A DNA stretch of 64,000 nt from Enterobacterales bacterium CwR94 (GTDB lineage Bacteria; Pseudomonadota; Gammaproteobacteria; Enterobacterales; Enterobacteriaceae). The position numbers were made by a program, and so were the translations under genes. This document shows positions 60,893 to 62,056 of the stretch, in pieces. The DNA lies in the NCBI GenBank assembly GCA_002837195.1, contig KZ478062.1:248001-312000 (forward strand), in the 5' to 3' direction. Numbering within the stretch: the stretch's first letter is position 1; each line of letters starts with the position of its first letter. A model generated the notes under the pieces. It was not told where the DNA came from, ran no database searches, and was given only the letters and a program-made list of their open reading frames with translations.

Positions 60893-60966
60893 GAGAATTC
60901 TCGTTAAGACCCGGTTTAGGTTGATGTGGTTATAATTTGGCCCGTCATATTTACAGGAGAACCCCC

Positions 60967-60999
60967 TTGGACAGTCATCGGTTATCACAACCCGTCTAA
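60967..60999 (+). CDS. Upstream leader ORF 1 (10 residues)
   Basis: TTG start seven bases after GGAG; encodes MDSHRLSQPV. The stop codon abuts the left arm of the first alternative hairpin (61000-61006), so ribosome position could decide folding. A predicted leader peptide; no homologue is recognised. Confidence 0.4.
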   Translation: MDSHRLSQPV

Positions 61000-61106
61000 G
61001 GCAGGCCACATTTTGTTGCCTGCCCAATTTCTGGCAGGCAATGCATTAATTCCTTTCTTAATTAGCGCATAGCTTTTGCTTTATATCCGTCTTCAGGAGA
61101 GCGGTT

Positions 61107-61166
61107 ATGCGTATTCTCATGAGTTATCAAGGTTTGTTCCCTCCCGGCGAGTCGATGTCTGCGTAA
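61107..61166 (+). CDS. Upstream leader ORF 2 (19 residues, Pro-Pro-Gly)
   Basis: ATG seven bases after AGGAG; encodes MRILMSYQGLFPPGESMSA. Pro-Pro-Gly is a known slow, EF-P-dependent motif, and proline-codon leader peptides control mgtA and mgtC in Salmonella. The ribosome binding site is stronger than that of many genes in this window. I do not recognise the peptide. Confidence 0.5.
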   Translation: MRILMSYQGLFPPGESMSA

Positions 61167-61245
61167 TGCACTGACTTCGCGGCGTGCTGTGTCACGTCGA
61201 TCTTCTTGCTAAGGCGCGCGATCGCGCCACAACGGAGAGCCTCCC

Positions 61246-61953
61246 ATGGCATGGACTCCTTTTATCATTCATCTGGCGCTGGCAGTGTTGCTGGGCGCTG
61301 TTATCGGTGCTGAGCGTCAATGGCGTCAGCGTATGGCAGGTGTGCGCACCAATGCATTGGTCGCGACGGGCGCCGCCATTTTTATTCTCAGTTCTGTAAC
61401 GACCTCGCCGGACAGCCCTGGCCGCATCGCGGCACAGATTGTTTCCGGTATCGGTTTTCTGGGCGCTGGCGTGATTATGCGCCAGGGCATGAGCATCAGC
61501 GGATTGAATACGGCAGCCACGCTGTGGTGTTCGGCTGGTGTCGGGGTGTTATGCGGGCTAGGGCAGTTTGCCAACGCCGTCGTCGCGACGCTGGTACTGC
61601 TGTGTGCGAATGTCCTGCTGCGTGAAGCGGCATCGCGTATTAACCTGCACCCCAAAACGGTAGATAACGAAGTTGAGCAGCGCTATCGCCTGAGCATCGT
61701 GTGCGGCGGCAATGATGAAATCATGGTGCGCACGCTGATTCTGCAAGCGTTGAATGGCGCGCCGCTGCGCCTGCAGGCACTCACCAGTGCGGACACCAGT
61801 GATGGTGAGCGCATGGAAGTCAGCGCCGATATCCTCGCTTATCCCGCTGCACAGCGTGATATCGAAAACATTGTTTGCCGTATTAGCCTGGAAAAAAGCG
61901 TCAGTGCAGTGAACTGGCGTGTGGCCCAACCACAACCCGTAACCTGTGAATAG
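61246..61953 (+). CDS. MgtC/SapB-family inner-membrane protein
   Basis: 235 residues. The N-terminal membrane domain has four to five helices and the family signature: LAVLLGAVIGAERQWRQRMAGVRTNALVATGAA (about 11-43), GIGFLGAGVIMRQG and GLNTAATLWCSAGVGVLCG. The C-terminal soluble ACT-like domain (about 140-235) is present, as in virulence-type MgtC. MgtC proteins act in low-Mg2+ and acid stress by limiting the F-ATPase and altering phosphate and potassium balance. GGAG lies eight bases before the ATG. The long leader and a following 30-residue membrane peptide gene suggest a Salmonella-like control scheme. Confidence 0.92.
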   Translation: MAWTPFIIHLALAVLLGAVIGAERQWRQRMAGVRTNALVATGAAIFILSSVTTSPDSPGRIAAQIVSGIGFLGAGVIMRQGMSISGLNTAATLWCSAGVGVLCGLGQFANAVVATLVLLCANVLLREAASRINLHPKTVDNEVEQRYRLSIVCGGNDEIMVRTLILQALNGAPLRLQALTSADTSDGERMEVSADILAYPAAQRDIENIVCRISLEKSVSAVNWRVAQPQPVTCE

Positions 61954-61963
61954 GGAGACGAAA

Positions 61964-62056
61964 ATGAAAAAGCTCGATATCTACAGTGTTGTGATCATGT
62001 TCTTTATTGGCGTGGTGATCCTGAGCAACGGATTGCTGATGATCATGGCGGCCTGA
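61964..62056 (+). CDS. 30-residue single-helix membrane peptide downstream of MgtC
   Basis: MKKLDIYSVVIMFFIGVVIL followed by SNGLLMIMAA: a basic N terminus and one hydrophobic helix. The ATG has GGGAGACG just upstream and lies 10 bp after the MgtC stop; a strong intrinsic terminator follows. In Salmonella the 30-residue membrane peptide MgtR is encoded in the mgtCBR operon and promotes MgtC degradation. Size, topology and position match, but the sequence is not obviously MgtR. Too short for common gene callers. Confidence 0.68.
   Translation: MKKLDIYSVVIMFFIGVVILSNGLLMIMAA

Follow-up and report, generated by a model that had tools for sequence, protein, structure and literature searches.

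A Salmonella-type mgtC leader, probably orthologous to that of mgtCBR, in Enterobacterales bacterium CwR94

Introduction

The leader of the Salmonella mgtCBR operon contains two short upstream open reading frames (uORFs), mgtM and mgtP, the first of which starts with UUG (PMC6908480). Expression of mgtC is altered by start- and stop-codon mutations in mgtM and mgtP and by changes in the proline codons and the stems (PMC3641672, PMC6908480). It is derepressed when the mgtM start is lost (PMC6908480), repressed when mgtP lacks its start codon or carries an early stop, and induced by stalling at proline (PMC3641672). Lee and Groisman (2012) aligned mgtP of Serratia, Yersinia, Proteus, Dickeya, and others, and called the mgtM peptide not conserved (PMC3641672). 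UUG has also been published as the start codon of corL (PMC11552253), and CC[C/U]-[C/U] has been discussed for Mg2+ control as a motif sensitive to tRNA m1G37 (PMC6335274). Here, we compare with these systems an mgtC leader in a 64,000-nt stretch of Enterobacterales bacterium CwR94 (GCA_002837195.1, contig KZ478062.1, positions 248,001-312,000 of the forward strand), referred to below as the window.

Results

Organization of the leader

The elements of the leader and of the genes that follow it are given below in window coordinates, together with their counterparts in the congener (L002), the single other genome of the genus available for comparison.

60903..60918, + strand: PhoP-box-like direct repeat GTTAAG-ACCCG-GTTTA, 11-bp period (sequence match only)
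60931..60936, + strand: -10 element TATAAT, read directly
60955-60959, + strand: Shine-Dalgarno (SD) sequence AGGAG of uORF1, read directly
60967..60999, + strand: uORF1, mgtM-type, fM-DSHRLSQPV, 10 codons, TTG at 60967, TAA at 60997-60999, read directly
61000..61006, + strand: arm 1, GGCAGGC, immediately 3' of the uORF1 stop, pairing with arm 2
61015..61024, + strand: arm 2, GTTGCCTGCC, common to two mutually exclusive helices (conservation and covariation)
61033..61042, + strand: arm 3, GGCAGGCAAT, pairing with arm 2 over 10 bp
61095-61099, + strand: SD sequence AGGAG of uORF2, read directly
61107..61166, + strand: uORF2, mgtP-type, MRILMSYQGLFPPGESMSA, 19 codons, ATG at 61107, TAA at 61164-61166, read directly
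61140..61144, + strand: CCUCC in the Pro-Pro codons, predicted by folding to be a partner of the mgtC SD
61180..61199, + strand: hairpin CGGCGTG-CTGTGT-CACGTCG between uORF2 and mgtC (congener, same place: GGCGTGC-CTGT-GCACGCC)
61213..61228, + strand: GC hairpin GGCGCG-CGAT-CGCGCC before the mgtC SD (congener, same place: GGCGC-TGCG-GCGCC)
61246..61953, + strand: mgtC, ATG at 61246, SD GGAG at 61234-61237; PF02308, PF21770, and NF011912/PRK15385 above cut-off
61964-62056: hydrophobic 30-codon ORF MKKLDIYSVVIMFFIGVVILSNGLLMIMAA right after mgtC, kept in the congener

An earlier note on this DNA had proposed a two-uORF leader with alternative stems before mgtC, analogous to Salmonella mgtM/mgtP, and each element that it named was found in its place: the consensus TATAAT, the 10-codon TTG ORF with its SD and a stop codon adjoining an arm, the 7-bp arm and its partner GCCTGCC, which can pair instead with the arm at 61033, the 19-codon ORF with Phe-Pro-Pro-Gly (preceded by Leu), and the GC hairpin after uORF2. 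The consecutive proline codons lie ahead of the mgtC ribosome-binding site (RBS), with FPPG at 61137-61148. The downstream gene was confirmed as mgtC by PF02308 and by NF011912, and the score of the latter (313.9 bits; cut-off, 255) indicates a Salmonella-type MgtC. The small stem supposed to hide the mgtC RBS held up in part: GGAG and CTCC are present in the window, but this is the one element that conservation does not support, as the congener lacks the CTCC partner. An intrinsic terminator was considered and rejected, the one weak match (the CGGCGTG hairpin with the tail ATCTTCTTGC) standing against 0.5 expected by chance. The fold of the 313-nt leader had a z-score of -2.9, and 1 of 100 shuffles was equally good. 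The 30-codon ORF after mgtC recalls MgtR in size and place; a Pfam search with it gave no match.

The PhoP-box-like repeat agrees with 10 of 12 consensus positions, the preceding base being counted, and 2% of shuffles were as good. It lies 12 bp upstream of the -10 element, and the congener has the same spacing with 11 of 12 positions. A sigma-70 scan of the window promoter found no -35 partner for TATAAT, as is expected of a PhoP-activated promoter. By these sequence matches, the leader may have a PhoP-dependent promoter. In other genera, similar repeats are often ∼34 bp from the -10 element, compared with 12 bp in this genus, which suggests two promoter layouts.

Homology with the mgtCBR leader

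A scan of the window leader against Rfam at the gathering cut-off gave no match. When the search was made permissive, RF02887 (mgtC_leader; consensus GUUGGACAGUCAC...GGCAAGC...GCUGCUUGC...GGGCAGC) was the best family and aligned to the window over its full length of 114 positions, with a score of 22.8 bits, below the cut-off of 48. RF02887 also matched an Enterobacter leader above the cut-off (54.9 bits), as well as Serratia and Yersinia leaders. Because RF02887 exceeded its cut-off in only 5 of the 296 genomes of the order, we built our own covariance models. Model R1 had matches in 123 of 392 genomes of the family (E ≤ 0.05), so the RF02887 threshold is evidently narrow, and this family misses most of its real members. 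Model R2 was constructed from 22 leaders of other genera, the window's genus being left out to avoid circularity. It located the window leader at full length (60947-61054; 42.2 bits, E = 1.4e-9) and also found the leader of the congener (E = 3.6e-7). The match of the genus-left-out model argues that the window leader is homologous to the mgtCBR leader of Salmonella and to the series in Serratia, Yersinia, Providencia, and others; it is through homology to this series, not through the Rfam cut-off, that we assign the leader to RF02887.

The mgtC loci of other genera show the same upstream order: an SD, TTGGACAGT..., a stop at or near GGCAAGC, GCTTGCC, GGCGGGCAGC, a short (S/A)LFPPG ORF, and mgtC. 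We collected 93 leaders with uORF1, 80 of which also have uORF2 as an L[F/L]PP ORF. The downstream gene is mgtC or an Mg2+ ATPase gene in 89 of the 93; the set includes two corA leaders and two others that do not precede mgtC or the ATPase. In L083-L086, L130, and L144, mgtM and mgtP precede an Mg2+ ATPase gene and mgtC is missing. In L131 (G432:C73:31453-31565), a leader module without the proline ORF lies upstream of a 73-codon ORF and an ABC permease-like membrane protein.

The earlier note had described the peptides and stems as different from those of Salmonella and the control as possibly an undescribed version. Neither statement can be maintained: RF02887 aligns over its whole length, mgtM of Salmonella likewise starts with UUG (PMC6908480), and mgtP had already been aligned across genera (PMC3641672), so that what was proposed as new appears to be an orthologous leader with modest differences. 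Judged by homology, the window contains a relative of the known two-mini-gene mgtC RNA switch of Salmonella, not an undescribed system. The best explanation overall, which we consider very probable, is an mgtC leader orthologous to that of Salmonella mgtCBR (mgtM and mgtP), with control of the Salmonella type. Direct support exists for its parts and their homology, for both helices, which are conserved and covary, and for uORF2 as a conserved coding sequence.

The signals, the polarity, and the involvement of Rho would be those of Salmonella by analogy. At low Mg2+, PhoP would initiate the transcript, as the box suggests. A ribosome finishing uORF1 would stop beside arm 1 and cover it, and arm2:arm3 would then form; we take this to be the OFF form because abolishing mgtM translation raises mgtC in Salmonella. 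If uORF1 were not started, were aborted, or were translated by a ribosome lagging behind RNA polymerase, arm1:arm2 would form and transcription would continue. A ribosome stalled at Phe-Pro-Pro-Gly of uORF2, because charged tRNA-Pro is scarce, EF-P is not active enough, or tRNA-Pro is poorly methylated, would keep the stems downstream of it off the mgtC RBS and so turn mgtC ON.

uORF1 and its opening

In the window, uORF1 opens with TTG-GAC-AGT. Residue 2 is acidic in all 93 leaders (87 D and 6 E, the two corA leaders included), and residue 3 is Ser or Thr in 89. Of 65 non-redundant relatives, 61 use TTG as the start codon and 4 use ATG, and residue 2 is encoded by GAC, GAT, or GAA. The stop codon sits before arm 1 in the window and the congener and within or after it in most relatives; a ribosome terminating at uORF1 would nonetheless be expected to cover arm 1. 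In Salmonella, the ATP response is mediated by a run of adenines in mgtM. There is no AAA in uORF1 of the window (CACAACCCGUCUAA), and AAAAA is present in the congener. Because the adenine run is weak, the ATP part of the control is the least certain for the window.

Beyond Enterobacterales, a short ORF with exactly (T/G)TGGACAGT was found ≤ 450 nt upstream of mgtC in 25 of 62 mgtC loci, which are related and do not represent 25 independent events. The controls gave 0 on the reverse strand, 0 farther upstream, and 0.1 in shuffles. The carriers belong to Pseudomonas, Burkholderia, Paraburkholderia, and Collimonas:

Pseudomonas: L021, L023-L028, L032, L036, L042, L072 (GGACAA in L026)
Burkholderia group: L052, L057, L059, L061, L062, L065, L066, L071, L074, L075, L079-L081
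Collimonas: L033, L034

Less exact versions of this ORF were seen in P. aeruginosa PA7, Undibacterium, Pantoea, and others, and several non-Enterobacterales loci also have helices like those of arms 1, 2, and 3. No proline uORF2 was noticed in these Pseudomonas, Burkholderia-group, and Collimonas loci. The mgtM-type ORFs outside Enterobacterales lie directly 3' of a strong promoter-like sequence.

Two further leaders of this kind were found in the window's genome, one before a P-type ATPase gene and one before corA:

G000:C5:342834-342923, - strand: second mgtM-type leader (L125), before an MgtA/MgtB-type P-type ATPase gene
G000:C13:42130-42146, - strand: corL ORF LDTPSRYWLMFLQLCRHNL with a UUG start, before corA (L205)

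The first contains three tandem uORFs (LDSHRT; MKISHALFPPGINR; MDEPPCTQRLRVAAIAC). This layout, in which mgtC is missing between ORFs 2 and 3, also occurs in L126, L127, L129, L133, L134, and L141 from other genera. The third ORF is similar to mgtQ, which lies between mgtC and mgtB (PMC8092293). We considered the three-uORF leader as a new fusion and rejected this, as its last ORF seems to be an mgtQ that stayed behind where mgtC is absent. The corA leaders L205, L196, L197, L201, and L202 open with UUG GAC AC(A/G), as mgtM does. R1 matched the corA leader in two other genomes (31 and 24 bits), and the genome's own corA leader scored 11.9 bits with R2; this resemblance of mgtM and corL is a weak sequence similarity and only suggestive. 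Taken together, the comparisons indicate an mgtM-type mini-gene that is far more widespread than described, with the rule start-acidic-usually Ser/Thr, common with corA. The fMet-acidic opening is apparently undescribed in the papers that could be searched.

The opening bears on whether the first attenuator of this mgtM/mgtP descendant senses Mg2+ and not ATP, with the acidic residue 2 destabilizing the ribosome, a mechanism put forward for MgtL and MgtQ and perhaps valid for CorL. Such a mechanism would agree with the acidic residue in every leader, with the Asp of the Pseudomonas, Burkholderia, and Collimonas ORFs, with the UUG GAC ACA of corL in the same genome, and with the weak adenine run of the window; Asp2 and Glu5 of MgtQ do work through ribosome destabilization (PMC8092293). 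However, one acidic residue may not suffice, and the Salmonella data favor an ATP response that requires adenines. We regard Mg2+ sensing by uORF1 as a real possibility, although on balance a doubtful one.

uORF2 and the mgtC ribosome-binding site

Synonymous variation in uORF2 is extensive (six codons for Leu, two for Phe, four for the second Pro, and four for Gly), indicating selection on the peptide. At the first Pro, 60 of 61 non-redundant leaders use CCT and none uses CCC, against a background of 125 CCT among 678 Pro codons (18%) in the downstream genes. This bias would be explained if uORF2 acted mainly by translational unmasking, the CCUCC of the Pro codons being an anti-SD that sequesters the mgtC SD as long as no stalled ribosome covers these codons. 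Pairing of CCUCC with the mgtC RBS is predicted in this genus, with an expected 2.75 of 5 bases paired in the window and 4.87 in the congener, and the RBS is its predicted main partner in others; moreover, the effect of a synonymous change to a Pro codon of mgtQ works via RNA pairing (PMC8092293). However, cognate CCUCC/SD pairs were no better than pairs swapped across genera (permutation fraction, 0.23), the pairing was predicted in only 13 of 30 mgtC-first leaders, and CCU is also m1G37-sensitive (PMC6335274), which could yield a bias without pairing. Because the covariation was not significant, we keep anti-SD pairing as a rival and not as a claim, and consider it unlikely to be the main role of uORF2. 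Two other candidates were rejected: m1G37 as the cause of CCU would also lead one to expect CCC at the first Pro, where it never occurs, and a correlation seen by eye between the third base of the Phe codon and the base that follows GGAGG in the SD was unconvincing.

Alternative arms

The pairing of the two exclusive helices was counted in an alignment of 25 leaders (A1). Arm1:arm2 was paired in 97.1% of the cells, with two-sided change in 3 of 7 pairs, and arm2:arm3 was paired in 97.2% over 10 bp, with two-sided change in 3 pairs. When the arms were slid by 1-3 columns, pairing dropped to 12-65%. Triplets such as GGC/GCC/GGC are replaced by, for example, GGT/ACC/GGT, which keeps both helices simultaneously and fits a real switch. 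The energy of the 49-nt arm region alone was not unusual (z = -1.4), and the region is nearly bistable, arm1:arm2 being the minimum free energy structure and arm2:arm3 the centroid; for the reality of the arms, we consider conservation decisive, and energy not. Both the arms and the ORFs are kept across Enterobacterales, contrary to the lack of conservation that the earlier note had named as speaking against its proposal. That they are a chance resemblance, with mgtC controlled by the promoter alone, would suit the unexceptional energy but is refuted, as far as sequence can do so, by the covariation, the coding conservation, and the genus-independent homology, and we find it hardly credible.

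Discussion

We consider the window an ordinary but clean case, in which tandem mgtM/mgtP control, supported by covariation, reaches this genus. What goes beyond the searchable literature is the fMet-[Asp/Glu] opening, the near-invariance of CCU at the first Pro, and the two extra leaders in the same genome. Of these, the rule for the opening (fMet-acidic-Ser/Thr) and the invariance of CCU are the more interesting leads, and both give cheap, sharp predictions on Mg2+ and proline sensing. Speculatively, mgtM and corL could be one family of UUG-started fMet-acidic-Ser/Thr ORFs that sense Mg2+ by early ribosome destabilization and stand before mgtC, Mg2+ ATPase genes, or corA, with those upstream of mgtC being widespread in Enterobacterales, Pseudomonas, Burkholderia, and Collimonas; in addition, the Pro codons of mgtP would double as an anti-SD for the gene under their control. 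We think this whole scheme rather unlikely.

Compared with known systems, the window leader resembles the mgtA leader with mgtL and the mgtC-mgtB intergenic region with mgtQ in having a short ORF with an acidic residue 2, alternative stems, and an Mg2+ gene. In contrast, mgtL and mgtQ have an AUG start, encode peptides rich in Pro and acidic residues, and lack a three-arm module of the window's sequence. The corA leader with corL (Salmonella and E. coli) shares a short UUG ORF with fM-D-T, alternative structures, and an Mg2+ gene, but it precedes another gene, no proline ORF was seen in it, and its promoter is constitutive (PMC11552253). Relative to the mgtCBR leader of Salmonella, uORF1 of the window has 10 codons, a stop before arm 1, and no clear AAA run; uORF2 has L-F-P-P-G, whereas that of Salmonella has three prolines; and mgtC is followed in the window by the 30-codon ORF and not by mgtB. 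Nevertheless, the two leaders have in common a promoter of the PhoP type (putative in the window), a UUG uORF1 with a GGACAGUCA start, three arms forming two exclusive helices, a proline uORF2 near the mgtC RBS, and mgtC downstream.
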